From: a virus
IMG/VR virus record: IMGVR_UViG_3300017770_000107
Location: 1-29,312 of that record
DNA length: 29,312 bases
Strand: one strand, 5' to 3'
Part shown: piece by piece, positions 6,343 to 29,312 of the stretch
Layout: each line of letters begins with the position of its first letter
Numbering within the stretch: position 1 is the stretch's first letter
The notes under the pieces: model-generated
Told to the model about the DNA's origin: nothing
What the model saw: only the letters and a program-made list of their open reading frames with translations
The model's database searches: none
Program-made: the position numbers and the translations under genes

Positions 6343-9300
6343 ATGGAAGAGACTGAAGAAGAAAAAAGATTAAGAGAATACAATGAGTACATTAAATCAC
6401 TTCCAGAGGGAGACCCTAGAAAAGAAAGCGGTATAGATACTCCATTAGTGCCTGAAGAAAAAATAGAAATAGAAGACTTTAGCAACGATGAAGAATTAAT
6501 GAATGCTTACAACAATGGGGAGCTATCTGCTGAGTCTACTGAAAGAATGAATCTTCTTACTAAAAACGCTGAAGATGCTAAAGTTGATTCTAAAGATTTA
6601 ATACTATCAGATGATAATATATCAAGACTAGATGCTATTGTTTTAAAAATGAGGTCTAATCCTGAAAAATACACTATTGATATTCAAAAATCTGTTGTAA
6701 ACGACTTTAAACTAAAATACGGTAAAAAAAAAATTTCGGATACGGATGGCTCTACATCAGGTTTGGAAGATGGTGCTTCGGATTCAAGCGTTTTTGATTA
6801 CAACTTACAAACACAAGTATGGCTTAAAGATGGCTCTGTAGTAGACGCATCTCAAGTTCCTGACTTTGAAAAAGAAAAGGTATACAGTGAGCAGCAGCCA
6901 ATTAAAGAATCTGAAGATGATATTGCAGCTCAAGTAAATTTAGGTAAAGATGCTATAGTTCACTCATATCCAGTAGGATTAGGAGATGACGGAGAGTACC
7001 TATCTACTATAAGATTTGGAGAAGATGATACTCTTGTATATGTTGATAGTGAAGGGCAAGAACTCAACAAAACTTATAACACTTTAAAAGAAGAGTTAGA
7101 TAGTTTGAAGTCTAGATATAATAGAATGTCTGAGGCTCCACAATTACCAGGGAAAGTTTCAAAAGAAATATTGAAACAATTATCAGAAAAGCAATCTGAG
7201 TTCGATTTAGTAGACCAGCAAATAAAACAAAACATAGATAAAAATAAAACTATACAATTAAACAATAGTTTAAATTCATTTAGAGGCAATGAAAAGGACT
7301 GGGATGCAAAGATAATATACTCTTTACCTTCAGAGCACTTTTACAATGAAGACGCTACAAAAATATTTGGAAGAGGATTAACGACTCAAGAATTACTAAA
7401 CTATCAAGGAGAGTTGCTTTCTGATAGAGCTAACAATAATTACGGAATAGTTGGTAATACTATTAGCGAGTTTGGATTTTCTGAATACAGTAAAGAAGAT
7501 TTAACTAATAATATTATATTTAATTTTGAATCTGACTTAGAGGACAATGCCAAGAAATATCTTACTGATGAAGATATACAGAAAGCTAAGCTAAGTAATA
7601 GAGCTTACGAAATAGAAAAAGAATTAGAGAATAATCCTAGAGCTGAGAACGCCAATGAACTTCGTAAAGAGCTAAGACAAATAAAACGTGGTATAGGTAG
7701 TATAAATATAACTACACCTATGTTTAATGTTGACGGAGAAAGAATTGATAGAGAGTTTGCTAATAAAGAGAATGTACAATCATTTAATCAACAGGTAGAA
7801 TTAAACTATCAAATGTTTGACCAGACCGATAGAGGTGAATTAATGACTGTATATGAAAGGTACTCATCTATTAAAAAACAACTAGAGAACGATTTTGAGA
7901 CATTAACATTTAAAGACTTATTAGGTCAGCCAATATCTATTAAAGATGCTTTTGAAAAAAAGAATATTGATAGAATGGGTGTTCTTGGAGGTACTATAGA
8001 TGATGCTATTGGATATTTAGGATTAGAGCCAGAATCTGAAAAAAATATTAGAAGAGTTGTAGGTAACTACAAAAGACTATATGAGGAGAATGAATCTAAA
8101 CTTATAGCAGCTACTAGAGTTTTGGCTACAAACACAGACCCAGGCTCAATAGATAAGGGTGGATTTGCTAATCTAAAATTATTTGCTGAAGGTTTTGGAG
8201 AAGGCTTTCTAGATATATTTGTTGATAATCCTGATATTAAGACTGATGCCGATTTTATAGCTACGTTTGGTCAGATTATGCAAGAGAATGGTATTGAGAT
8301 GACTGAAGACCAGATTAAACAAACCACTACAGATATATCTGATATGGTTGCTAGCGGTCTAGGTACTTCTTTACCTATAATGGCTCAGATAATGTTAACA
8401 AGAAAGATTCCTTTATCTTTGATAGGTAAGTTAAGACAGACATCGAGATACAAGGCTTTAACGGCATATGCTAATAGCTATGGAACTACTGGTAAATTTG
8501 CTTTAAAATTATCAGAAGATATACTTACTGGTGCTACTTCTTTCGGTCTTGTTCCTTCAGACAATATAAGTGTAGCTATGGGCGTTGGTGAGGGTACAGC
8601 TGGTGCTGTTTTTGAGACATTCTTTCCTCAATCCAAAGCGTATCATATTATAAGGAGAGCATTTGAAAGTGCTGGTGCTAAAGGAATAAATATAGGAGCA
8701 TATTCTATTAGAATTTTAGGCGGTGGAGCAGGAGAGACTATTGCTGAATATTCTGGCGACATGCTTAACAATCTAACTAAAAATGGATTTGATTGGGAAA
8801 ATGCACTGGAGCAAACATTTGGTAGAACTGGTGATGAAGTTTTAGATAAGTTAGTTGCTACGGCTTTGACATGTACTATGTTCTCTTCTGCATTCAATGC
8901 AGGTATGCTTAATCTTACGATAGATGAGATTAATCAAAAGTATGGAGACCCTAATCAAGATAAAAAAATAAAAGAGGCTTTAGCTAAACTAAACCTACTA
9001 ATAGAAAAACATAAACAAAGCGAACCTGGAACTCAGTTATCTTTACTTGATAATGAAGCTTTCGTTGAAGGAACAGCTTTAGTTGATGATGAGTCTATTA
9101 AACAAAGAGGCGGAGAGGCAACATTAGTTCGTGAAGGCTCCAAACTGTTTAACGCCCCTGTAAAAGAAACAGCTTTGATAGCTGATGAATATCTACAGAA
9201 CAACTCTGAAGGCTTAGGTGTAACTCCTACTGGTGCTAGACCTATTCCAGAGATAGACATAGAAAATTCTAAACGTATAGCTGATGCTTTCGATGCTATG

Positions 9301-12300
9301 AAGCACGACCCTACAAATCCTGAGGTTGTAGCAGCTTATGAGGCTATGGCTAAGGAAACTATAGACCAGTTTAACTTAGTGTCTAACAAAGGATATAAAG
9401 TAGAAATATGGAAGGGTGAGGGAGAACCTTACGCTAACTCAGCAGAGATGATTAAGGATGTTAGGGACAACAAACATATGTATATCTATTCTACTGAGTC
9501 TGGTTTTGGTCAAGAAGGAATTACTAAAGAGCAGAGAGCAGAAAATCCTTTACTATCTGAAACAGAGTTTACCGATATTAATGGAGAGCCATTGGTGGTC
9601 AATGACTTATTTAGATTTGTCCATGACTTTTTCGGTCATACAGAGCTAGGAAATGGATTTGGACCAAAGGGTGAGGAGAACGCTTGGGTCAATCATTCTC
9701 GTATGTATAGTCCTGAGGCTAGAAGAGCTATGACAACAGAGACTAGAGGGCAAAACTCTTGGGTTAACTTTGGCAAGCAGATAAGAAGAGAAGATGGCTC
9801 CATACCTAAGAAAGGCGACCCTGACTACGTTCCTCTATCTGAAAGAGAATATGCAGACCAAAAGATAGGATTACTTCCTGATGATATAGTTAATCAACTG
9901 CCTGACATGCAGACAGTTATAACTGAAGATGTTGACATTGAACCTACTATAGAGTTTAGTGAAGAATCTAATACGTTTGTTTCTGAGCAAATAGAAAACG
10001 CTTTATCTAATAAGGTAGACGGAAAGAATAACAATAAATTAGGTAGACTTGACCTAGGCATGAGTACAGTTAATATTCAAAAGGGTATTAGCGATTACGT
10101 CAATAATGTAGAGAGTGATGAAAGAGCTCAACTAGAAGACGCACTAAGAACTATGTATGATTCTGGTGAGATTAAATTTTTAGGGGTAGACGGAAAGAAA
10201 GTAGTTAGAACCAGTGTTTCTGTATCAGACTCACAGAACTTAAAAGAAGATATAAAGGTAACTAAGGATACACCTTATGTGTTCAATAAGCCTGAGCTAA
10301 ATAAAGAGCAGTTTGAGCTCAACATGGAAAGAACTCAAAACGGAACTGTAGAAGGAGGAACTACATTTAATGAAGAAATAGGAAATCTTGACGGAAAAAA
10401 ATTATTTTCTGTAAGTATATTCCCTGAAATTTCTGTAGTAAAAGAATCTGGGGAAACATTTACTCAACAAGAGATTGAGGCCTTTAAGGTAAAGCATAAG
10501 GATATATTAGATAGAAGTAAAAACTTAGCGGTAGGAACATTTACTAGCGGTTTATCTGGAAAGTCTTATCTAGATATAGTTGCTTTAGTACCATCCTCTA
10601 ATGCTGTTCAAGCTGAGCAATTAGCTATAGCTTACAATCAGGAATCTTTTTATGATTTGGAAAAAGGTAAAGTTATTGAAGTTGGAGGCACTGGAGAAAC
10701 TGTAGAGGGTCTTCCTGATATTACAGAGAGATTGTCTGAGATTGAGACAGCTAATGTAACAGAGTCTTACACAGATAGACTAATAGGAAAACTTGAAGGC
10801 ATTCGTGATGGAATTGATGATGGCATGATGATGGCAGACCCATTCTTAGTAACCGCTACCGTCAAAGCTGGTCTTGATATAACAATAAAAGCTATAAAAG
10901 CTGGAGTAGCTATTTCTAAAGCTGTTGAACAAGGTATTGAATACATAAAATCAAACAAACCTTCAAATGAAGATTTCAATGAAGAGTCTTTTAGAAGATA
11001 CATGGACTCAGGCTATAGTGAAGTAAATGTTAACGCACCAAATAGAAACTCTGATGGAATTATAGAAGTCAATGAAACAGAATTAGAGTCAGAGCCTGTT
11101 AATAGTAAAGAGGTTAATGTTGAAGAAGAAACAAGACAATCTAATAGACCTGGAGATTCTAGTGTTGCACGTTCTGTAAATGAAAGAAGAAAAGAAGAGT
11201 TCAATAGAAAAAAGAAATTAACTGTTGAGGAACTTAAAATAAAAATGAATCAATGGTTTTTTGATGAGAATTACAGATTCAAAAATGAGTTAATTAAACT
11301 TGGAGAAGAATACAACCTAAGTGTTGAATCCTTAGAAGCTATAGCCTTCAGAAATCTTATAAACGGAGCTTCAGCATCAGCTAAATCAAAATCTCGAAAA
11401 GTAGTAAGAGAGATGGATGGGGGTATAGGTAAGTCTCATTTAAGTAAAAGCGAAAGAAGATTAAGTGATGAAATAATAGAGTTTCAGCGTGTTATATCTT
11501 TAGATGCTCATTATGACAGAATAAAACTACAAACAGATGGGCTTATCAAGGAGTTGTCATCTATGGATACCGATTCTGATTTATATAAAGATACGTTAAA
11601 AAAGATAAATAATTTGTCAGATAAAATGGGATTAACATTTGATTCTGAAAACGGAAATCTTATGATGGGTGAAGAGACTGTTCCAGAAGGTTTAGATACT
11701 GAAACATTTCCATGGAGAATTAAACATACAACATCTAAAGATGGTATAATGTTAACATCAGCTGATGCTCAAGCTTTTTTAAATGAAAATGTTGATAATC
11801 CTGACTACAAGAGAGCTAAAGAAAGAGCTGATATTTACTTTGAATCTACTAGAAATCTATTAAAGCTCAAGTATGAAAGTGGATTAATAAGCAAGGAAAC
11901 TTACGAAAGGTTAAAGGATATGGATTATTCTCCTAGAGTATTTTTAAATAAAATTCTTAATGGGGCGGAGCAAAATCCTAGTGTTCTTGATGGGGCTTCA
12001 ACAGAAAAAAATATAGAATCTATAGACGGAATACTTTCATCTTTAGAGGGAGGTTCATCAGACGTGCTATATAACAACGCCACAGACCTAATACAAAAGC
12101 AAATTTTAGCTACTGAAAAATTATTATTTTTAAATGATTCTAGAAAATCTGTATTGAACTTCATTAATGAAGCTACAAAACAAGGTAAAGATGTTAGCGA
12201 TTTTGGATATGTTATAGACAGAAAAAATCCTAAGCAAGAAGGATATGAGGTTATGGATGTTATGGTTGATGGAGAGGTAGTTAAAATTGCTATAGACAGT

Positions 12301-14283
12301 GAAATAGCGTCTTCTTTTTCTAGTAAGACGACAGGCTCTAATTTTGCAAGAATTATGAGTGGTACTGGTATTCTCAAAACTATGGCAACTGGAACCAATC
12401 CTCTTTTTGCACTTACTAACTTTCCTAGAGACTTTCAGCATGTATTGATGAGTACGGATGTTTACTCATCTGTTTTACCTGTAGGAGCAGCACAATTAAC
12501 TTCAGACATAAATTCTGTATTAATTACCTCTTTAAATAGAGGTCCAGAATATCAGAAGGCTATTGAACAAGGAATGGGTATGGATTTTTTATCTACTCAG
12601 GGGAAAGTAAAAATAGGAGAAGGAGAAGGTAGATTTAAGAAATCAATGAACTCTATATCTAACGCTATGTCTTGGACTGGAGAAACTTCTGAGATTTTAA
12701 TTCGTATGGCTGTTAGAAATAGACAAATAAAAAATAGAACCGCTGAATTTGAAAGTTCAAATGGCAGAAAACCCAACGATAAAGAATTATATAAAATAGA
12801 AAAATTAGCAACTGAAGACGCTAGGGCAACTATGGATTTCTCTCAAGGAGGAACCATTTCTAAAAAGATGGATTCTTATATGCCTTACTTAAATGCTTCT
12901 CTTCAAGGATTTAGAGTAGGGGCAAAATATATGATAAATAATCCTGTAAAATCTACATTTAAAATATCTCAATTAGGTATTGCTGCTATGAGTCTAACAG
13001 CTGCAAACTTATCTAGATACAGAGAGGATTATGATAAAATTAGTCAATATGAGAAAATAAATAATTATATACTTATTTTGCCTTTTAAAAATGAACAAGG
13101 AGAAAGTCAATATCTTAGAATAAGAAAAGACCACTTTATGATTCCTTTTACAACTTTGTTTGAAGATTTTTCTTATCTTCAGCAAACAGGAGTAAATCCT
13201 AATTTTTCAGGAGAATTTGGCAACTATATTGACGAAGACACAAAGAGTAATATGCAGATAGCTTTTGAATTGTCTAATCCAATAACTGGACTTGCAGATA
13301 TAAAAGAGATAATAACTGGTCCTCCTATTGTAGATGCTGCTATTGCTTATATAGCAAACTATGACACGTTTAAAGATAAGGAAGTTTACAGAAGTCCTTA
13401 TGATGATATAGACCCAGAAACAGAAATTGTGTACGGAGAGACTATGCAAGTTTTTCAAGACATCGGAAAAGCAACAGACATGTCTCCAGCAAGATTGCAA
13501 TCTGTTGTTTCTAAATTCCTTACAGACCCTAGAAAAAATATTTGGTTACAAGGATTTTCTACTGTTTATAATGAGTTGACTCAAGATATGGATAAGTATG
13601 AAATAAAAGAATTTGATAGACAGTTAAACAGAGGGTTTGTACAAGCTTTAGGAGAATCTGTTGAAGGAACTGTTCTTCGTTCTGTTCCAAGTTATAGTAG
13701 AGACCCTAGAACAGATGCAATATTGAAGGGGAAAACTAAGGATTTAACTAGAAAAAACACTTCATCTAAACTTAAAAAAGAGTATTCTAAAATATACAAT
13801 CAAATCATGATGGATGAAAAATCTAGTGATGAAGATAAAAATAGATTTATGGATAACTCTTGGGATGAATACAAAATGAGACTTAAAGAAAATCTTGGTG
13901 ATGATTATGATATTGATGATACTTTTATAGATAACGAAGAATCAGAAGATAAACCATCTTTTGAAACTAAAAAAGATTTTGTTAAATACTTGCAAAATGA
14001 GCTCATGGAAGAAATGACTAAGGAAGCTTTTGACGATGGTTATGAATATGGAACTAATAATGCTTTAAACATGATAAATGATTTTAAAAGTTACACTCCA
14101 GAAAATGCTGCATCTGCATATATAAGTCTTTATAACTTATACTTAAATAAATATGGTAAGGATAGTGAAGAATTAAATAAGTTTGTTGAACTATCTAGAA
14201 ATAAAGGAGTTATAGAGCCAGGAAAAGATAGTAAGTTTAATAATTTTTTAATGATATTAGAAAATAAAAGAGAAGAAGAATAA
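6343..14283 (+). CDS. giant polyvalent-type virion protein with LPD38-like region
   Basis: A 2,646-residue uninterrupted protein. Parts in order: an acidic N-terminus and coiled-coil-prone helices (about 1-600); a Gly/Ala-rich hydrophobic stretch (about 610-855), typical of membrane-penetrating ejection proteins; a conserved globular block (about 967-1160) starting PIPEIDIENSKR, with VNDLFRFVHDFFGH (H1094, D1095, H1099), GEENAWVNH (E1111, H1118) and TETRGQNSWVNFG (1133-1144); further helices; and a C-terminal half whose segment NPLFALTNFPRDF (about 2019-2031) and surroundings resemble LPD38, the large polyvalent protein-associated domain 38. The His/Asp/Glu spacing suggests a metal-binding enzyme, but I cannot name the activity. 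Polyvalent proteins are known to be delivered with phage DNA. This one probably is too, based on size and position (T7 gp16-like). No classic lysozyme motif was seen. Confidence 0.7.
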   Translation: MEETEEEKRLREYNEYIKSLPEGDPRKESGIDTPLVPEEKIEIEDFSNDEELMNAYNNGELSAESTERMNLLTKNAEDAKVDSKDLILSDDNISRLDAIVLKMRSNPEKYTIDIQKSVVNDFKLKYGKKKISDTDGSTSGLEDGASDSSVFDYNLQTQVWLKDGSVVDASQVPDFEKEKVYSEQQPIKESEDDIAAQVNLGKDAIVHSYPVGLGDDGEYLSTIRFGEDDTLVYVDSEGQELNKTYNTLKEELDSLKSRYNRMSEAPQLPGKVSKEILKQLSEKQSEFDLVDQQIKQNIDKNKTIQLNNSLNSFRGNEKDWDAKIIYSLPSEHFYNEDATKIFGRGLTTQELLNYQGELLSDRANNNYGIVGNTISEFGFSEYSKEDLTNNIIFNFESDLEDNAKKYLTDEDIQKAKLSNRAYEIEKELENNPRAENANELRKELRQIKRGIGSINITTPMFNVDGERIDREFANKENVQSFNQQVELNYQMFDQTDRGELMTVYERYSSIKKQLENDFETLTFKDLLGQPISIKDAFEKKNIDRMGVLGGTIDDAIGYLGLEPESEKNIRRVVGNYKRLYEENESKLIAATRVLATNTDPGSIDKGGFANLKLFAEGFGEGFLDIFVDNPDIKTDADFIATFGQIMQENGIEMTEDQIKQTTTDISDMVASGLGTSLPIMAQIMLTRKIPLSLIGKLRQTSRYKALTAYANSYGTTGKFALKLSEDILTGATSFGLVPSDNISVAMGVGEGTAGAVFETFFPQSKAYHIIRRAFESAGAKGINIGAYSIRILGGGAGETIAEYSGDMLNNLTKNGFDWENALEQTFGRTGDEVLDKLVATALTCTMFSSAFNAGMLNLTIDEINQKYGDPNQDKKIKEALAKLNLLIEKHKQSEPGTQLSLLDNEAFVEGTALVDDESIKQRGGEATLVREGSKLFNAPVKETALIADEYLQNNSEGLGVTPTGARPIPEIDIENSKRIADAFDAMKHDPTNPEVVAAYEAMAKETIDQFNLVSNKGYKVEIWKGEGEPYANSAEMIKDVRDNKHMYIYSTESGFGQEGITKEQRAENPLLSETEFTDINGEPLVVNDLFRFVHDFFGHTELGNGFGPKGEENAWVNHSRMYSPEARRAMTTETRGQNSWVNFGKQIRREDGSIPKKGDPDYVPLSEREYADQKIGLLPDDIVNQLPDMQTVITEDVDIEPTIEFSEESNTFVSEQIENALSNKVDGKNNNKLGRLDLGMSTVNIQKGISDYVNNVESDERAQLEDALRTMYDSGEIKFLGVDGKKVVRTSVSVSDSQNLKEDIKVTKDTPYVFNKPELNKEQFELNMERTQNGTVEGGTTFNEEIGNLDGKKLFSVSIFPEISVVKESGETFTQQEIEAFKVKHKDILDRSKNLAVGTFTSGLSGKSYLDIVALVPSSNAVQAEQLAIAYNQESFYDLEKGKVIEVGGTGETVEGLPDITERLSEIETANVTESYTDRLIGKLEGIRDGIDDGMMMADPFLVTATVKAGLDITIKAIKAGVAISKAVEQGIEYIKSNKPSNEDFNEESFRRYMDSGYSEVNVNAPNRNSDGIIEVNETELESEPVNSKEVNVEEETRQSNRPGDSSVARSVNERRKEEFNRKKKLTVEELKIKMNQWFFDENYRFKNELIKLGEEYNLSVESLEAIAFRNLINGASASAKSKSRKVVREMDGGIGKSHLSKSERRLSDEIIEFQRVISLDAHYDRIKLQTDGLIKELSSMDTDSDLYKDTLKKINNLSDKMGLTFDSENGNLMMGEETVPEGLDTETFPWRIKHTTSKDGIMLTSADAQAFLNENVDNPDYKRAKERADIYFESTRNLLKLKYESGLISKETYERLKDMDYSPRVFLNKILNGAEQNPSVLDGASTEKNIESIDGILSSLEGGSSDVLYNNATDLIQKQILATEKLLFLNDSRKSVLNFINEATKQGKDVSDFGYVIDRKNPKQEGYEVMDVMVDGEVVKIAIDSEIASSFSSKTTGSNFARIMSGTGILKTMATGTNPLFALTNFPRDFQHVLMSTDVYSSVLPVGAAQLTSDINSVLITSLNRGPEYQKAIEQGMGMDFLSTQGKVKIGEGEGRFKKSMNSISNAMSWTGETSEILIRMAVRNRQIKNRTAEFESSNGRKPNDKELYKIEKLATEDARATMDFSQGGTISKKMDSYMPYLNASLQGFRVGAKYMINNPVKSTFKISQLGIAAMSLTAANLSRYREDYDKISQYEKINNYILILPFKNEQGESQYLRIRKDHFMIPFTTLFEDFSYLQQTGVNPNFSGEFGNYIDEDTKSNMQIAFELSNPITGLADIKEIITGPPIVDAAIAYIANYDTFKDKEVYRSPYDDIDPETEIVYGETMQVFQDIGKATDMSPARLQSVVSKFLTDPRKNIWLQGFSTVYNELTQDMDKYEIKEFDRQLNRGFVQALGESVEGTVLRSVPSYSRDPRTDAILKGKTKDLTRKNTSSKLKKEYSKIYNQIMMDEKSSDEDKNRFMDNSWDEYKMRLKENLGDDYDIDDTFIDNEESEDKPSFETKKDFVKYLQNELMEEMTKEAFDDGYEYGTNNALNMINDFKSYTPENAASAYISLYNLYLNKYGKDSEELNKFVELSRNKGVIEPGKDSKFNNFLMILENKREEE

Positions 14284-18899: not shown

Positions 18900-20669
18900 T
18901 TATTTAGTATAATAACTACTTCTAGGATTTGTGGCAAATAAAACAGAATGAGTTATACTGACTCTATCCAATGGACAACTGTTACCCAAGTCAAGATACC
19001 TGTTCGACCTCCTATCAAACTTCAGAAGTTGTTCACCAGGTATGCCAACTAACTTTTGGAATTTTACTTTCTGAATATTGAACCTTACGGAAGTGTCAAA
19101 GGTATCTTGTGGGTTATTTCTATGTATACAGACTACATTGTCTGCTTTGTTGAACCAGTTTTGAGAGCCACTAATATCATATGCGGTTGGCATCTTGTAG
19201 TGCATTCCACTCTCATCTTTATCCATTTTTCTAGGGTGAGCTATTACTATGAACTTCAAGTCGTTCACTTGTTCAAATCTTCTAATCTTAGTCAAAGCCT
19301 CTCCTATATAAGTTGTTTCATCTTTACCTCTGAACTCGTGGTCAAGCTGATTGAATGGGTCTATAAGACATCCCTTGATTCCGTAACGCATAACTAAATG
19401 TTTAAATTTTGCTAGTACATTATCTAAGCTGAAATCATCTTCAGGATATATAGCATAGAAGTGCTCATTCAAAAACTGCATAGCACTTTCATATTCATAC
19501 TCATTCATTCTCTTGTCTTTCTCCATGTCAGATGTGTTTCCTACATACATTTCTGCAAGCAAGTCAAACAAATCTCCTACTGGATAATTCTCAGGAGAGA
19601 ATACTCCCCACTTCCAACCATACAGAACAGATGCGTTTAGCATAATCTGCATAGCCATCATTGTCTTACCTGAGCCTGGAACACCAGTCCACACATCTAG
19701 TTCAGATGTTCTAAGTTTGTAATGATTGTCTAATATTTTATAGCCAGTAGTAAGTCCCTTCTTCTTTCCATTATGGAAGACATCAAGCATGTATCCTCTT
19801 TCACTATCAACAGTAAATATTCCTTCAACTGGATAAGGTTGTGAACTCTTCAAACATTCCTCTAATTGAATAGGACCAAGTTCCATTAGCATTTGATTGG
19901 CATCTTTTATGCCCTCTGGAAATGATACTATATTACATCTTTCTCTACCTAATCTCCTACTTATTTCCTCAAGAAGAACCCTACCATTGGTATCATTATC
20001 TGAGCAAATATGTATCTTCTCAACTGTATCAAAGTAACTCCAACAGTTGTCAAGATAACTGAACTTGTTGTCATAGTTTTTTGTGCCTGGATTTGGTGCT
20101 CCATCAGGAACGCTAACACAGTTTGTTATACCAACCTCCTCTAAAGAAAGCTTATCCATCTCTCCTTCTACTATATATACTTCATTACAATCTTGTATAT
20201 CATCTAAACCGTAGAATATCTTCTCGGCATTCTTAGTTTGTTTAAAGTTTTTCTCTGAGTCTCTGTATTTAATATTTATTAATTCATCATCTCTATAGTA
20301 GTTAAAGTTTATGGTATTCCTTTCCTTACCTACTTGAGGCATGTATTCACATGATTGAGTAATCTTGTTTCTTATAATTGTCCCAGCAGATATTCCTCTA
20401 GACTTGAACCATTCATATAATTTATCTGAAAGGTTTGTTGCGTTACTAGCAATAGGCCTCTCATACTTTTGCTCCTTTGAGCCCATTGTTCTATGACTAA
20501 CTATTATTCCTGAGTCTCCACAATGATGACAAATGTAAGCTCCGCTTTCAGCGTTAATTGCTAGGCACTTTTCTTTTGATTTTTTTCTATCTGTAGAGCA
20601 AGACCTACATACGGCTCTTATCTCTCCCTCTGTTTTGTTTATTGTAATTTGGTCGTTGGCTAAACTCAT
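18900..20669 (-). CDS. T7 gp4-like primase-helicase
   Basis: A 589-residue protein. It has a zinc-finger start (C21-x2-C24 and C47-H-H-C50), a TOPRIM primase core (VYIVEGEMDKL with E168; ICSDNDTNG with D224 and D226), then a RecA/DnaB-type helicase (GVPGSGKT Walker A at 329-336; GCLIDPFNQLDH Walker B with D437; FIVIAHPRKMD; SGSQNWFNKADNVVCIHRN near the end). It would unwind the fork 5'-3' and synthesise primers as a ring-shaped enzyme. Length and order match phage bifunctional primase-helicases. It lies 2 nt after a loader-like gene. No DNA polymerase is in the window, so that gene must lie elsewhere on the genome. Confidence 0.92.
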   Translation of the reverse strand: MSLANDQITINKTEGEIRAVCRSCSTDRKKSKEKCLAINAESGAYICHHCGDSGIIVSHRTMGSKEQKYERPIASNATNLSDKLYEWFKSRGISAGTIIRNKITQSCEYMPQVGKERNTINFNYYRDDELINIKYRDSEKNFKQTKNAEKIFYGLDDIQDCNEVYIVEGEMDKLSLEEVGITNCVSVPDGAPNPGTKNYDNKFSYLDNCWSYFDTVEKIHICSDNDTNGRVLLEEISRRLGRERCNIVSFPEGIKDANQMLMELGPIQLEECLKSSQPYPVEGIFTVDSERGYMLDVFHNGKKKGLTTGYKILDNHYKLRTSELDVWTGVPGSGKTMMAMQIMLNASVLYGWKWGVFSPENYPVGDLFDLLAEMYVGNTSDMEKDKRMNEYEYESAMQFLNEHFYAIYPEDDFSLDNVLAKFKHLVMRYGIKGCLIDPFNQLDHEFRGKDETTYIGEALTKIRRFEQVNDLKFIVIAHPRKMDKDESGMHYKMPTAYDISGSQNWFNKADNVVCIHRNNPQDTFDTSVRFNIQKVKFQKLVGIPGEQLLKFDRRSNRYLDLGNSCPLDRVSITHSVLFATNPRSSYYTK

Positions 20670-25335: not shown

Positions 25336-25572
25336 TTAACTTTCATAATACTCTGGTTTATCGTTAGTTATATCTAGTGTATTCTCTAGTAGTGTTTCTA
25401 CTTCATCATATCTTTCATTGAAGAAATCTTGAGTCTCCTCTGTAAATCCTAGTTCATTCCTTTCTATATCCATATCAAAGGTATCCTCATGAAAGTTTAG
25501 TTCGGTGAGTTGTGTAGCTATCTCGCTAATAAACTCAATCCATTTGTCGTTTGGTATTCTGTGTTTACTCAT
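25336..25572 (-). CDS. acidic small protein of unknown function
   Basis: 78 residues, highly acidic: WIEFISEIATQLTELNFHED then MDIERNELGFTEETQDFFNE and DEVETLLENTLDITNDKPEY. Helical with no recognised motif. The charge would suit a DNA mimic or inhibitor, but nothing shows this. Starts with TAATG overlap to the upstream gene. Confidence 0.6.
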   Translation of the reverse strand: MSKHRIPNDKWIEFISEIATQLTELNFHEDTFDMDIERNELGFTEETQDFFNERYDEVETLLENTLDITNDKPEYYES

Positions 25573-25783: not shown

Positions 25784-26143
25784 TTATTTAATTTCTAATT
25801 TACATATATGGTTTACATATTCACACCATTCCCCTATCTCAGAGTGTATAACATTATCTTCACCTAAAGCAAACATGAATCCTTTATCGCCTAAGTCATC
25901 AATACATTTATTGACCGCCATAACATCTTCATACTCATCGTACCACTTGAGATAGTCTTCTACCCAAACAATCCAATACTCTGTGTAAGTTATTTTATTA
26001 TTTTTTTTATCAAACTCGCTCCAACTGTAAGTCTTTTCATACCATTTGAATGAGTCTTGTAGGTCATGTTTTTCTAAAACTTTATCCATTTTATCTCTTG
26101 AGTCTTTCTTGGCTCCAAAGATTACTTTACTTCTGTATCCCAT
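25784..26143 (-). CDS. MGYRS-type phage protein, unknown function
   Basis: 119 residues beginning MGYRSKVIFGAKKDS, a start shared by a recurring family of small phage and bacterial proteins without assigned function. The body has alternating strand and helix segments rich in Trp and Tyr (SFKWYEKTYSW, YWIVWVEDYLKWYDEYEDVM) and ends FALGEDNVIHSEIGEWCEYV. The family call is from recall. Starts 1 nt after the upstream membrane gene. Confidence 0.65.
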   Translation of the reverse strand: MGYRSKVIFGAKKDSRDKMDKVLEKHDLQDSFKWYEKTYSWSEFDKKNNKITYTEYWIVWVEDYLKWYDEYEDVMAVNKCIDDLGDKGFMFALGEDNVIHSEIGEWCEYVNHICKLEIK

Positions 26144-26144
26144 A

Positions 26145-26297
26145 TTATTTAATTTTATATTGTCCTAGTGTTAGTACTGCTGATACCCATAGTCCTACAT
26201 ATATCGCTGATTGTTTGTCTCCAAAGAACCATAGTGATAATGATAGGGTTAAACTGAATGTTGCAAATCCTAGTGTGAATAATTTTTGTTTGTCCAT
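26145..26297 (-). CDS. 50-aa two-helix membrane protein
   Basis: Read directly: MDKQKLFTLGFATFSLTLSL then SLWFFGDKQSAIYVGLWVSA and VLTLGQYKIK. Two transmembrane segments (about 7-25 and 31-46) joined by a short GDKQ turn, hairpin-like with both ends inside. Unknown function. It is the first gene after the structured gap 26298-26414. Confidence 0.6.
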   Translation of the reverse strand: MDKQKLFTLGFATFSLTLSLSLWFFGDKQSAIYVGLWVSAVLTLGQYKIK

Positions 26298-26328
26298 AAT
26301 TTAATTTAGTTTAATGTTAATTGTTAAG

Positions 26329-26416
26329 AATAGTAAGGTAAGAGATTGGTGTCGCAACTGACTTTACTCTTATTAAGTGTGTATAGCACAAGCTACTCAT
26401 TACACACCTTACTATT
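26329..26416 (-). other. 88-nt perfect three-way-junction inverted repeat
   Basis: Closing stem AATAGTAAG (26329-26337) with CTTACTATT (26408-26416), 9 bp. Second stem TAAGAG (26339-26344) with CTCTTA (26367-26372). Third stem GTGTGTA (26377-26383) with TACACAC (26401-26407), continued by TAGC (26384-26387) with GCTA (26392-26395), loop ACAA and a 5-nt bulge. All pairs are Watson-Crick. It fills a 117-nt intergenic gap and begins at the stop codon of the 26415 gene. Strand is assumed from transcription. It is not a canonical tRNA; a structured RNA or processing element is likely. Confidence 0.7.
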
Positions 26417-26642
26417 AATTATTTCTTGCTTGTTCTATTAATCCCTCTTCTATTGAGTCAGTCATCATCAAGTCAAAGTACATGTCTGTAATATCTATAC
26501 CATTATATTCGACTTTCTTTATTTCTATATCTTCTTCAGGTGGTTGCTCCCAATTTCCAGTGTCCGAATAATATCTGTAATATATTTCTATCGTATAGGT
26601 TTCTTGCTCTATACAATAGCTATCTTCTACTACTCTTTTCAT
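26415..26642 (-). CDS. acidic small protein of unknown function
   Basis: 75 residues: MKRVVEDSYCIEQETYTIEI then YYRYYSDTGNWEQPPEEDIE, VEYNGIDITDMYFDLMMTDS and a helical end. Beta-rich first half, acidic. No known motif. Starts in an ATGA overlap with a membrane microprotein; its TAA stop lies inside the closing stem of the structured element at 26329-26416. Confidence 0.6.
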   Translation of the reverse strand: MKRVVEDSYCIEQETYTIEIYYRYYSDTGNWEQPPEEDIEIKKVEYNGIDITDMYFDLMMTDSIEEGLIEQARNN

Positions 26643-26749
26643 ATGTTATATATTAAGTTATAAATTATTGATGTTGTCATAGCTACTATACCTAAGTACA
26701 TAACAACGTATCCTAAAATTTCTTTCTTAGTTTGTTTATCTACTTTCAT
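26639..26749 (-). CDS. 36-aa single-pass membrane microprotein
   Basis: Read directly: basic start MKVDKQTKKEILGYVVMYLG, then IVAMTTSIIYNLIYNI. One transmembrane segment (about 12-34) with a positive N-terminus inside. ATGA overlaps on both sides (26746-26749 and 26639-26642) support translation. Function unknown. Confidence 0.55.
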   Translation of the reverse strand: MKVDKQTKKEILGYVVMYLGIVAMTTSIIYNLIYNI

Positions 26750-26940
26750 TTTGCTATTTGTAATAAGGTTAATCTTTTCTCCTTCTCGTGCAAAGATAGG
26801 GTGTCCCAATCGTGTGGCTTTATAATACCATCAGTTGCAAATACTATTCTAGATTTTGCTTTTACTTTACTTTCTCTGTCCTCTACTGACATATCAGTCA
26901 ATAGCATGAACATCTTCATCATATCTAAATTGTTACTCAT
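26746..26940 (-). CDS. 64-aa helical protein of unknown function
   Basis: MSNNLDMMKMFMLLTDMSVE then DRESKVKAKSRIVFATDGII and a C-terminal helix SLHEKEKRLTLLQIAK. Met-rich N-terminal helix and a short basic middle. No motif recognised. Overlaps the upstream gene by 8 nt and the downstream microprotein by 4 nt. Confidence 0.6.
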   Translation of the reverse strand: MSNNLDMMKMFMLLTDMSVEDRESKVKAKSRIVFATDGIIKPHDWDTLSLHEKEKRLTLLQIAK

Positions 26941-27226
26941 TGTTTTTATTGTTTTGGTTAATAAATTCTACTACTGCATTATAGGTTCTACTTAATGATA
27001 TATTAGTCAATCCATCGTATATATCTTGATATATAAAATATTCTCGTTCTGCTTCTCCTATTAAGCATTTCTCTACCACAGGCATAAGCCAATCCCAAGA
27101 TACATTGTAAGATAGTTCGTGTTCTTCGTACCAACTACTATTGAAATAATAGTTTACTTTACCACTCCAGAATACCTCTGTATCTAATCCCATAAATTCT
27201 GCTATTAGTTTATTGTTCTCTTTCAT
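26933..27226 (-). CDS. conserved phage protein with SWDWLMPVVEK motif, unknown function
   Basis: 97 residues. MKENNKLIAEFMGLDTE, then YNVSWDWLMPVVEKCL and an ending NAVVEFINQNN. The order NKLIAEFMG...Y...SWDWLMPVVEKI...FI is one I recall in many small proteins from Bacteroidetes phages and prophages; none has an assigned function. First gene after the 213-nt structured gap 27227-27439. Confidence 0.7.
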   Translation of the reverse strand: MKENNKLIAEFMGLDTEVFWSGKVNYYFNSSWYEEHELSYNVSWDWLMPVVEKCLIGEAEREYFIYQDIYDGLTNISLSRTYNAVVEFINQNNKNNE

Positions 27227-27337
27227 TCATAATTATTATAATTGTTAATAACTTTTATTGTTTGTACTTGTTTTTCTATTGACTTTGTAAATTATATCCC
27301 ATAACTTTGCCTTGCTATTGTGCTGTATAGTATAACA

Positions 27338-27408
27338 CACCGTTTACTTTACACGAGTTCTTTTTTTAAAGATAAAAAAATCTCTCTCAGTGAGCCTTGC
27401 GAACGGTG
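27338..27408 (-). other. long nested hairpin and GC-rich island in intergenic gap
   Basis: Nested pairs on the given strand: CACCGTT (27338-27344) with AACGGTG (27402-27408); CACGAG (27352-27357) with CTCGTG carrying a bulged A (27386-27392); seven T (27361-27367) with seven A (27374-27380). Adjacent 27386-27436 is clearly GC-richer than its surroundings and has a further 4-bp hairpin TGGC-GAA-GCCA (27407-27417). No open frame longer than 14 codons was seen there. The remaining gap sequence (27227-27337) is AT-rich with no gene. Confidence 0.55.
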
Positions 27409-27439
27409 GCGAAGCCATAGTGATGTCCCATTTAACGCC

Positions 27440-27646
27440 CTAGCTATATTCATTTTTTTCCTCTGTATGAATATTCTTTTCTTCTATTCTTATATTGATT
27501 GCCTCTTGTATCTTTCTACCCATATCCAATACGTTTTCAGTTTCCGCCATACTCAAGTTGTAATCTTCTGCAAACTTTTCTGTTGAAAGGTAGTTGTTGA
27601 ACCAATCTAGGTACATATCGTGTAATTGTTCTTTGTTGTAATTCAT
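27440..27646 (-). CDS. 68-aa HTH-like protein
   Basis: MNYNKEQLHDMYLDWFNNYL then STEKFAEDYNLSMAETENVL and a helical end. The middle (STEKFAEDYNLSMAETENVL) fits a helix-turn-helix, in which the FAEDYNLS turn resembles XRE/MerR-like folds. Possibly DNA-binding; identity uncertain. Starts in a 4-nt overlap with the upstream gene; followed by a long structured gap. Confidence 0.55.
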   Translation of the reverse strand: MNYNKEQLHDMYLDWFNNYLSTEKFAEDYNLSMAETENVLDMGRKIQEAINIRIEEKNIHTEEKNEYS

Positions 27647-27873
27647 TTTGTTTTTAGTCTAAGTTTAACAAATTCATCTTGCTTTCTTTCTTCCTCTTCA
27701 ATAATCTCTTCTAGGTAGCTAGCTATCTTATGGCATACTTCTACTTGTGATTGCACTATCATCTCTTCTATTCTACCAGAATGATAACTATCGTAGTGAA
27801 AGTCTCCACTATCTATATTCTCTAGCATTCCTTTTAGTTTGTGTATTCTATCTTGCATGATTGTAGTATTCAT
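27643..27873 (-). CDS. 76-aa helical protein of unknown function
   Basis: MNTTIMQDRIHKLKGMLENI then DSGDFHYDSYHSGRIEEMIV and a helical Glu-rich end (EEIIEEEERKQDEF). A later ATG at 27858 is an alternative start. Helical, no known motif. Overlaps the upstream gene by 26 nt. Confidence 0.55.
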   Translation of the reverse strand: MNTTIMQDRIHKLKGMLENIDSGDFHYDSYHSGRIEEMIVQSQVEVCHKIASYLEEIIEEEERKQDEFVKLRLKTK

Positions 27874-28093
27874 TTTTAAATGTATTAATTAGTCCTCTTC
27901 CGTAGGCGGTATGAAATCCGTATGAATGTGTACCACTCATAGGTTCGTTCTCTATTATAAGATGGAATAAATCCTCCACATCTACATCATATTCGTTAGC
28001 CGTATATTCTAGTGCTAACTCCATACTATCGGCACAATGTTTCATATGTCCGTAGTGTCCTTCTATGTAATCTTGTATTTCTTCTGCTTTCAT
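27848..28093 (-). CDS. His-rich small protein of unknown function
   Basis: 81 residues. MKAEEIQDYIEGHYGHMKHC then YTANEYDVDVEDLFHLIIEN and GTHSYGFHTAYGRGLINTFK. Several His residues and one Cys in the first 25 residues could bind metal, without a recognised motif. TAATG overlap with the gene upstream. Confidence 0.6.
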   Translation of the reverse strand: MKAEEIQDYIEGHYGHMKHCADSMELALEYTANEYDVDVEDLFHLIIENEPMSGTHSYGFHTAYGRGLINTFKNEYYNHAR

Positions 28094-28242
28094 TATAGTA
28101 TAATTTGTTTTAGTTTCTTATATTCTACTGCATATCCATCTTCTACAAATATTAATTCATATCTGTATCTATTTTTGTAGTTGTTTCTGAGCATAAATTT
28201 TCTTGCTCCCTCGTATGTTTTAAAGTATTTTATATCCCACAT
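28093..28242 (-). CDS. 49-aa protein, copy 1 of a duplicated gene
   Basis: Read directly: starts MWDIKYFKTYEGARKFMLRN; the C-terminal part NYKNRYRYELIFVEDGYAVE matches the second copy at 28622-28765 (about 17 of 26 residues identical by eye). Basic start and beta-strand end, unknown function. Ends with a 1-nt TAATG overlap; starts after a structured 140-nt gap. Confidence 0.6.
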   Translation of the reverse strand: MWDIKYFKTYEGARKFMLRNNYKNRYRYELIFVEDGYAVEYKKLKQIIL

Positions 28243-28261
28243 TATAATTTAATTGTTTTAA

Positions 28262-28377
28262 AAACGAGTTTCAGTTGTGGTCGACTGCTTTTGGTGTTGT
28301 TTTGCTACACTTTGCAATAGTGTCAGAATTTTGGTTAGTCAATCTGTGTGACTCCTCTTTTTTCTTTTTTCTCGTTT
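28262..28377 (-). other. cloverleaf-like set of inverted repeats in intergenic gap
   Basis: Closing pair AAACGAG (28262-28268) with CTCGTTT (28371-28377). Inside are three hairpins: CAGT/ACTG (28272-28287, 8-nt loop), ACACT/AGTGT (28307-28323, 7-nt loop TTGCAAT) and AGTCA/TGACT (28337-28353, 7-nt loop). The 7-4-5-5 order recalls a tRNA, but the 19- and 17-nt linkers and the missing T-loop sequence rule out a normal one. The gap 28243-28382 has no gene. Strand is assumed from neighbours. Confidence 0.45.
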
Positions 28378-28382
28378 GTTGT

Positions 28383-28622
28383 TTATATTCTAGGTAAAAA
28401 GTGTTCATCATTTCTACTTAGTCCAGCAATATCGTGCTTGAGGTCAAAGGTGTAGTCGTATAGATTTTGTTCATCTAGCTTGACTAACCTCTCACAAAAG
28501 TCATCGTTATCGAATAGTACGCTAAGTATATCAATACTTCTTGTACCTTTCATCATTTCTTCTGTTAGTCTTATTTGACAAATACTTATAGCTTTATCAA
28601 TATTTTTCCAATTCTTTTCCAT
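28383..28622 (-). CDS. 79-aa helical protein of unknown function
   Basis: MEKNWKNIDKAISICQIRLT then SIDILSVLFDNDDFCERLVK and the end DLKHDIAGLSRNDEHFL. ATG at 28622 is preferred over GTG at 28628 because it forms TAATG with the stop of the upstream copy-2 gene. No known motif. Followed by a structured gap. Confidence 0.6.
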   Translation of the reverse strand: MEKNWKNIDKAISICQIRLTEEMMKGTRSIDILSVLFDNDDFCERLVKLDEQNLYDYTFDLKHDIAGLSRNDEHFLPRI

Positions 28623-28765
28623 TACCACCCAATATTTTTTAGTTCTTTATATTCTACTGCATACTCGTTATCAACGAAAATTACGTTGTATCTGTACTTG
28701 TTCTTGTTTCTAGAAATCCATTTGTCTAAATGTTTTTTCTCTCCAAAATAGCGTGTTATCCACAT
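28622..28765 (-). CDS. 47-aa protein, copy 2 of a duplicated gene
   Basis: Read directly: MWITRYFGEKKHLDKWISRN then KNKYRYNVIFVDNEYAVEYK and ELKNIGW. Homologous to the protein at 28093-28242: identical MW start, YRY-x-x-IFV, YAVEYK and LK. The first half is more divergent. Start codon region contains a perfect DnaA-box-like TTATCCACA on the + strand (28756-28764). Confidence 0.6.
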   Translation of the reverse strand: MWITRYFGEKKHLDKWISRNKNKYRYNVIFVDNEYAVEYKELKNIGW

Positions 28766-28769
28766 AGTG

Positions 28770-28991
28770 TTAGTGTTTAAGTGTTAGTGTTGATAGTGAT
28801 TTTTTCGGCTTGACTACATGTAAGCCCATTACTTGAGAAACATAGTTTATGTGTTTCTGTGTAGTTTTAGACCAATGCCCTAATTGTTTTAGGTTGTCTC
28901 CGGATATTGTTGCAACGTGTGTGTCGTAAGACATTACTTTGTTGCCATCTATCCTTAGGTTTTTTCTGTACTTGCTGTATCTCCTTGTCAT
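28770..28991 (-). CDS. conserved small phage protein (YRKNLRIDG...THVA type), unknown function
   Basis: 73 residues, basic. MTRRYSKYRKNLRIDGNKVM then SYDTHVATISGDNLKQLGHW and SKTTQKHINYVSQVMGL. The pattern K-Y-R-K-N-L-R-I-D-G ... T-H-V-A-x-I ... L-G-x-W-S-x-T-T-x-K-H-I-N-Y-V recurs in Bacteroidetes phages and mobile elements as I recall, without assigned role. Probably DNA- or RNA-associated by charge (weak inference). Confidence 0.65.
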   Translation of the reverse strand: MTRRYSKYRKNLRIDGNKVMSYDTHVATISGDNLKQLGHWSKTTQKHINYVSQVMGLHVVKPKKSLSTLTLKH

Positions 28992-28993
28992 AT

Positions 28994-29188
28994 CTATTTC
29001 TGTTTTAGTTCTTTAATTCTATTTTCTACATCTTCAATACAACTAATTGCTTTTAACTCCTCCAATAATCTTTGATTGGCAAACTCCCATTTCTCTATCT
29101 GCTCGTAAGCAAAAGAAATATGAGAAGCTGGGTAGTTTTCATCATGCTCGATAATTTTTTTCGCTTTTAAATAACATTCTTCAGTCAT
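28994..29188 (-). CDS. 64-aa acidic helical protein, first gene of early operon
   Basis: MTEECYLKAKKIIEHDENYP then ASHISFAYEQIEKWEFANQR and LLEELKAISCIEDVENRIKE. Coiled-coil-like C-terminal half. No known motif. It is the first gene behind the promoter at 29211-29242. Confidence 0.6.
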   Translation of the reverse strand: MTEECYLKAKKIIEHDENYPASHISFAYEQIEKWEFANQRLLEELKAISCIEDVENRIKELKQK

Positions 29189-29210
29189 ATCTATTTAATT
29201 TAATTGTTTA

Positions 29211-29242
29211 CAAATATAGTGAAAATATTTTACATACACAAA
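29211..29242 (-). promoter_or_regulatory. canonical Bacteroidetes promoter, TTTG-N20-TATATTTG
   Basis: On the minus strand TTTG (29242-29239) is followed after exactly 20 nt by TATATTTG (29218-29211), then TAAAC. The ATG at 29188 lies 22 nt further on. The -33 element abuts the stop codon of the upstream gene (29243). Same geometry as at 24034-24065. Drives the early block. Confidence 0.8.
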
Positions 29243-29312
29243 TCATTGTCCATCATCTTGATAGTCATCTTGCTGTTCTGTATCTAGTTCACCTAGTGCT
29301 ATGTACTCATTC
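29243..29312 (-). CDS. C-terminal end of an upstream gene, partial
   Basis: An open frame enters at the right edge and ends at TGA 29243. The visible residues are NEYIALGELDTEQQDDYQDD followed by GQ. Acidic tail only; the rest of the gene is outside the window. Confidence 0.5.
   Translation of the reverse strand, partial: NEYIALGELDTEQQDDYQDDGQ

Follow-up and report, generated by a model that had tools for sequence, protein, structure and literature searches.

The stretch of DNA analysed here (the window) is a virus record of 29,312 bases and, like most records of the protein family described below, a fragment. Its primase/helicase gene (18900-20669, minus strand) has its closest relative, in a search of phage records, in Tenacibaculum phage JQ (37.9% identity), and Flavobacterium phages form the largest group among the 478 records that match it, which together make a Bacteroidota host likely. 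The presumed virion-gene block contains one ORF of 2646 aa (6343-14283, plus strand). The two mini-genes under study, copies A and B, are found about 380 nt apart on the minus strand, within a row of small genes at the upstream end of the minus-strand block, and the genes of this block are presumably early ones. The locus comprises the following features:

27848..28093, minus strand: 81-aa gene coupled to copy A (cluster C23; relatives adjoin an A-like copy in records L083 and L080)
28093..28242, minus strand: copy A, a 49-aa MW-type mini-protein (ORF; E = 6.6e-23 with family model A3, of which A and B are themselves rows; pN/pS; start context)
28243..28382, minus strand: 140-nt gap separating the 79-aa gene from copy A, the putative 'cloverleaf' (fold z-score; tRNA and Rfam scans; ORF clusters)
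28383..28622, minus strand: 79-aa gene between the copies, its start overlapping the stop of B (ORF list; unmatched in Pfam and PHROGs at E <= 0.01)
28622..28765, minus strand: copy B, a 47-aa MW-type mini-protein (ORF; E = 3.2e-22 with the same model A3, which includes it; pN/pS; start context)
28770..28991, minus strand: 73-aa companion gene of the SYxTxVA...TTxKHIN type, directly upstream of B (PHROG matches, recurrence, fusion in L062)

The 4.3-kb end of the window gave no DNA match to the phage collection. Another contig, L001, is 99.6% identical to the window across 5.9 kb and carries identical copies of both A and B; by this near identity the two are one phage species, and L001 thus adds no independent evidence. 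The stretch 28999-29184, nearly the whole of a 64-aa gene (28994-29188, minus strand), is missing from L001, with flanks that are 99.6% and 99.2% identical, and judged by this alignment the difference is an insertion or deletion of a single mini-gene between near-identical phages.

Both ORFs of the mini-gene pair proposed in the initial annotation are present on the minus strand with their 49 and 47 aa at the positions listed, and the likeness of their C-terminal halves (17/26 identical residues) was reproduced on recounting. Over the full length, A and B share 24/47 residues (BLASTP E = 1e-13 in a single comparison), and their local alignment score of 116 compares to 52 at most among 5000 shuffles of B. 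Each gene ends in TAATG, where the stop codon shares bases with the start codon of the following gene, which suggests translational coupling of A and B to the genes behind them. The pN/pS of copy A was 0.315, 0.277 and 0.31 compared to L002, L008 and L009, respectively, while that of copy B was 0.23 compared to L016. Values of 0.23-0.32 against relatives in other phages mark A and B as real genes, and by this measure both are protein-coding and under purifying selection; it was this constraint that relatives displayed, rather than the disrupted or unconstrained frames that would have counted against the pair. That the ORFs are non-coding, having arisen by chance or being in decay, is highly improbable in spite of their very short length and the lack of a family name, in view of the pN/pS ratios, the full-length conservation with start and length fixed across diverse phages, and the presence of an annotated relative in isolates.

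By profile and motif, A and B are members of a so far unnamed family of phage proteins of about 46 residues. The family was defined by a length of approximately 40-52 aa, an MW start, K5, F7 and NNxY[A/G]VE[Y/F][K/R] near the C-terminus, and the relatives retrieved by scans of the viral collection gave the consensus MWxxKxFKT...NNxY[A/G]VE[Y/F]K. A and B carry these features, except that the NN positions are ED in A and DN in B and that position 5 is R in B. Across 56 distinct sequences, several residues are nearly fixed (W2 in 55/56, K5 in 54/56, F7 in 55/56, N35 in 51/56, Y37 in 51/56 and E40 in 53/56), and the net charge is above +0.5 in 52/56 members. The family profile matched 70/70 records, all of which had been preselected as matches of an earlier scan or of BLAST. 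The copy number in relatives, a check suggested in the initial annotation, was one in 66/70 records and two in the other four, namely the window and L001 (A and B), Caulobacter phage C1 (one match in each of two terminal repeats) and G047, where the second match is a 17-column fragment (E = 0.0023). Two different copies are hence present only in the window and L001.

Searches of Pfam, PHROGs and NCBIfam returned no convincing family for the mini-proteins, in line with the earlier suggestion that the family is under-described. Scans with four proteins yielded weak matches only (best E 0.023 in PHROGs and 0.011 in Pfam) and no match at E <= 1 in NCBIfam. With 33 members, 17 PHROGs were matched at E <= 0.1 (the best being phrog_3253, E 0.0021, in 4/33 members) together with five Pfam families, among them DUF1391 in 9/33 members (best E 0.0021); we read these weak matches as shared short motifs. 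In the case of DUF1391 (PF07151), the beta-alpha start of the mini-protein (FKTxxxAxxWxxRN) resembles the end of the profile (E <= 0.1 in the nine members), but the alignments, where printed, cover only the last 16-17 profile positions, with 14 and 15.8 bits compared to a cut-off of 27.3, and leave the NNxYxVEY half of the mini-protein outside the aligned part. Copy A was accordingly rejected as a DUF1391 protein (14 bits, where the gathering cut-off requires 27.3, with the alignment confined to positions 32-47 of the 48-position profile), and copy B was not among the matches to DUF1391 at E <= 1.

Among 50,697 phage records, convincing tblastn matches were obtained, with the queries tried, only in 10 Caulobacter-phage records (Bertelyvirus and related); besides these, 20 Mycobacterium records matched weakly (E 0.3-0.4), as did five records at E 4-9. 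The Caulobacter-phage records encode homologues of CcrC1_gp005, a 46-aa hypothetical protein of Caulobacter phage C1 that matches the mini-proteins over its full length, with 39.1% identity to B (E = 7e-4), 38.3% identity to A (E = 0.05) and 52-55% identity to intermediate family members (E = 2e-8 to 2e-9). Since this relative is annotated as a CDS, the assertion in the initial annotation that such genes are too short for routine gene callers does not hold. Phage C1 is a giant phage with an alphaproteobacterial host and a complete record of 311.5 kb, and it carries one such gene per direct terminal repeat, so that its two copies are identical by virtue of the repeat, unlike the diverged A and B of the window. 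A search of plasmids that used a single member (L034) as query was negative at E <= 1. A scan of genome_contigs with one conserved pattern, an approach that can miss relatives, produced 15 pattern matches, one of which was confirmed; it was rejected as a cellular copy, as it lies in a repetitive 929-residue reading frame that has NNGYAVEYKK in common with the family by chance. A description of the MW mini-protein family was not found in the literature, a result of little weight, since an unnamed family is not searchable by name. Small-gene catalogues in the literature may contain it as an unnamed cluster.

The structure of copy A was modelled with AlphaFold2 from 32 rows (E3-7 H10-20 E26-33 E36-43; pLDDT 84.6, pTM 0.60), giving a predicted beta-alpha-beta-beta fold for the mini-protein. 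From the alternation of conserved residues, the sheet would have an open face carrying conserved aromatic (F/Y32) and charged (E40 and K/R42) residues. The best match among viral models was a Caulobacter CcrSC homologue in BFVD (E 2.5e-3, TM 0.81). A Foldseek search of the PDB gave nothing significant (best E 0.52), and the sequence profile had one match only among solved structures (E = 0.15). The same order of elements is seen in the designed miniprotein gEHEE_06 (5jg9; VIA-align Z 5.4, rmsd 1.9, 43 aligned), in the FliG-interacting domain of FlhF (9en1; VIA-align Z 5.0, rmsd 2.6, 46 aligned) and in the Jag-N-like domain of KhpB/EloR (9lrg; Z 4.6, rmsd 1.9, 44 aligned, one of several tied middling rows), though the identity to the mini-protein is 9-12% and such low Z scores are common by chance, so that a shared function is not implied.

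The 73-aa gene ends 4 nt before copy B begins. Two PHROGs without known function match its product, phrog_4264 (E = 1.6e-7) and phrog_5643 (E = 4.5e-6), and the product gave no Pfam match and no tblastn match to phages at E <= 0.01; the structure model (pLDDT 80.0) gave no useful fold match. When a profile of this companion was run against 48 records, which are part of the 70 described above, 13 of them matched, always on the strand of the mini-protein and within 4.2 kb of it. Four of the 13 matches cross in-frame stops, and phrog_4264 itself was found in 9/48 records, all among the same 13. With G001 dropped as a duplicate, 12/12 companions share the strand of the mini-protein gene and are 8 to 4160 nt away from it. 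Random placements were as close in 17 of 200,000 cases (single-record probabilities 0.007 to 0.38), a statistic that overstates independence, since some of the 12 records come from related phages and small non-virion genes tend to lie together in phage genomes. In the remaining 35/48 records, including the complete Caulobacter phage C1 and the 160-kb record G013, the companion was not found. A natural fusion is present in the 129.6-kb contig L062, where a 780-aa ORF combines a mini-protein domain (residues 243-286) with a phrog_4264 domain (384-458, E 2.8e-20), and this fused protein does match phages by tblastn, mostly via the companion domain among the matches listed. The ORF (L062:2275-4617) looks like a mosaic of small domains and has no Pfam match at E <= 0.01. 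Judged by position and fusion, the family of the 73-aa gene is a recurrent companion of the mini-protein. Two other families of the window recur near mini-protein genes as well: a 119-aa family (MGYRSKV...; 25784-26143, minus strand) at 11 clustered loci, whose protein in the window has no match in Pfam or PHROGs at E <= 0.01, and a 78-aa family (25336-25572, minus strand) at nine.

According to the initial annotation, the two copies flank a cloverleaf-like gap and a 79-aa gene. The latter exists, with an ATG at 28622 and a stop at 28383 (a longer GTG form has 81 aa), and no relative of it was found outside L001. The cloverleaf proved weaker: folding of the 140-nt gap gave a branched structure (z = -1.95), and 6/200 shuffles were at least as good. 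A tRNA or known RNA was rejected for the gap, as ARAGORN found no tRNA anywhere in the window and Rfam gave no match at E <= 1 within 26000-29312. The gap also contains the greater part of a 46-aa ORF (28271-28411), which otherwise occurs in L001 alone, and a terminator-like site (28272-28287, plus strand; one observed compared to 0.4 expected in shuffles).

The flanking position of A and B had been taken to suggest a tandem duplication that included the intervening DNA. In a tree built from 46 columns, with 13 of its 53 inner branches well supported, the single-copy gene of L016 is joined to B (support 99/97), and A falls in a clade of 14 rows that takes in copies from other phages but not B (support 97/94). 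Forcing A and B to be sisters made the tree 19.2 log-likelihood units worse, with an AU test p = 0.067; separate lineages are thus strongly preferred, while sisterhood is not rejected at the 5% level, which leaves room for an older duplication. The nearest relative of A is found in L002 (39/49 identical residues) and that of B in L016 (32/47), compared to only 24/47 between the two copies, whose synonymous sites are near saturation (pS 0.733, dS approximately 2.8). Between the stretches of 540-560 nt flanking A and B, the best DNA match is a 77-nt segment inside both genes. Gene order gives each copy relatives of its own: L016, which has further gene families in common with the window, opens at its cut end on the final residues of an orthologue of the 73-aa gene, immediately upstream of the B-like gene, and the family of the 81-aa neighbour of A is found right beside the A-like copies of L083 and L080, on their opposite side. 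A recent tandem duplication is therefore disfavoured by the tree, by synteny and by synonymous divergence, with the reservation that the AU test stops at p = 0.067, and the unlike flanks count further against the copying of intervening DNA. On these comparisons, A and B look like two old lineages placed side by side.

The 3' ends of A (28102-28137) and B (28631-28660), both on the minus strand, have unusually many codons in common. Of the last nine codons for the same residue, eight are identical, compared to 6/13 elsewhere (Fisher p = 0.052), and codon usage would predict 4.4 (post hoc P = 0.015). Chance or a short tract of gene conversion might account for this.

A possible, if doubtful, alternative is an old duplication in place, in an ancestor of the phage group, followed by divergence and by loss of one or the other copy elsewhere. 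Such an origin would fit the spacing of about 380 nt on one strand, the failure of the AU test to reject sisterhood at 5% (p = 0.067) and the excess of identical codons at the 3' ends (8/9 compared to 4.4, post hoc P = 0.015), which gene conversion may also produce. It is at odds with the well-supported branches that part A from B in a best tree 19.2 log-likelihood units better, and with the separate syntenic relative of each copy; that two different copies occur only in the window and the near-identical L001, out of 70 records, also speaks against it, although most of these records are fragments and missing second copies are weak evidence. With A and B read as two old lineages, each with its own neighbours, the copies may have come together here as early genes were shuffled, or an older duplication may have left both in place.

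None of the relatives has an annotated function. The reading we prefer, with a probability of roughly 0.5, is that A and B are diverged members of a mini-family with a beta-alpha-beta-beta fold, not recent duplicates of each other, which would act through binding, together with the 73-aa companion, in early host takeover or in countering host defence. As a best guess, both would be binding proteins expressed early in infection, and the open sheet face of the small basic domain might contact host nucleic acid or protein, with the companion as partner. The two copies may each have a target of their own, or may pair as a heterodimer. An early takeover role fits the small size and basic charge of the proteins, the run of small genes ahead of the replication block, and the terminal repeats of phage C1 and of Bacillus phage Grass, the latter containing a homologue of the companion. 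In phage SPO1, according to PMC10531801, the terminal redundancy contains a host-takeover module, the proteins of which block replication, transcription and division of the host; large direct terminal repeats are described for PhiCbk-like phages in PMC9437464, and small phage proteins are reviewed in PMC11323111. The likeness to the SPO1 modules lies in the clustering of small early genes and in the location of the Caulobacter relative and the Grass companion homologue in terminal repeats, and by this analogy the mini-protein genes would have an early or takeover context. The difference is that neither family has a match at E <= 1 within the initial 14 kb of SPO1, and that the genes of the window are known from a fragment. 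More speculatively, and with rather low probability, the mini-protein and its 73-aa companion could be a two-part early complex that has spread among phages of very different hosts, as two genes or fused, and captures one conserved host target, the two versions in the window forming a heterodimer or addressing two targets.

The mini-proteins might instead bind nucleic acid for the phage's own use, for example in replication or transcription, without being directed at the host. We regard this as unlikely: the basic charge of 52/56 members, the conserved aromatics on the predicted sheet and the replication block on the same strand, including the primase/helicase at 18900-20669, are what it would predict, but the small size and patchy presence of the proteins, the placement of the Caulobacter phage copies in terminal repeats and the lack of a known nucleic-acid-binding family in Pfam count against it. 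A specialised role as a small anti-defence protein, inhibiting a host defence system, seems less probable again; the genes are small and move between phages with changing neighbours, as is typical of accessory genes, but the sequence holds no pointer to a defence target.

Small phage proteins form a numerous and mostly unexplained class, one member of which here gains a family, a predicted fold, near-fixed residues, a recurrent companion and a natural fusion. As an annotated homologue is encoded by cultured Caulobacter phages, its function is directly testable in a laboratory system. What is new is the family, not the kind of system.
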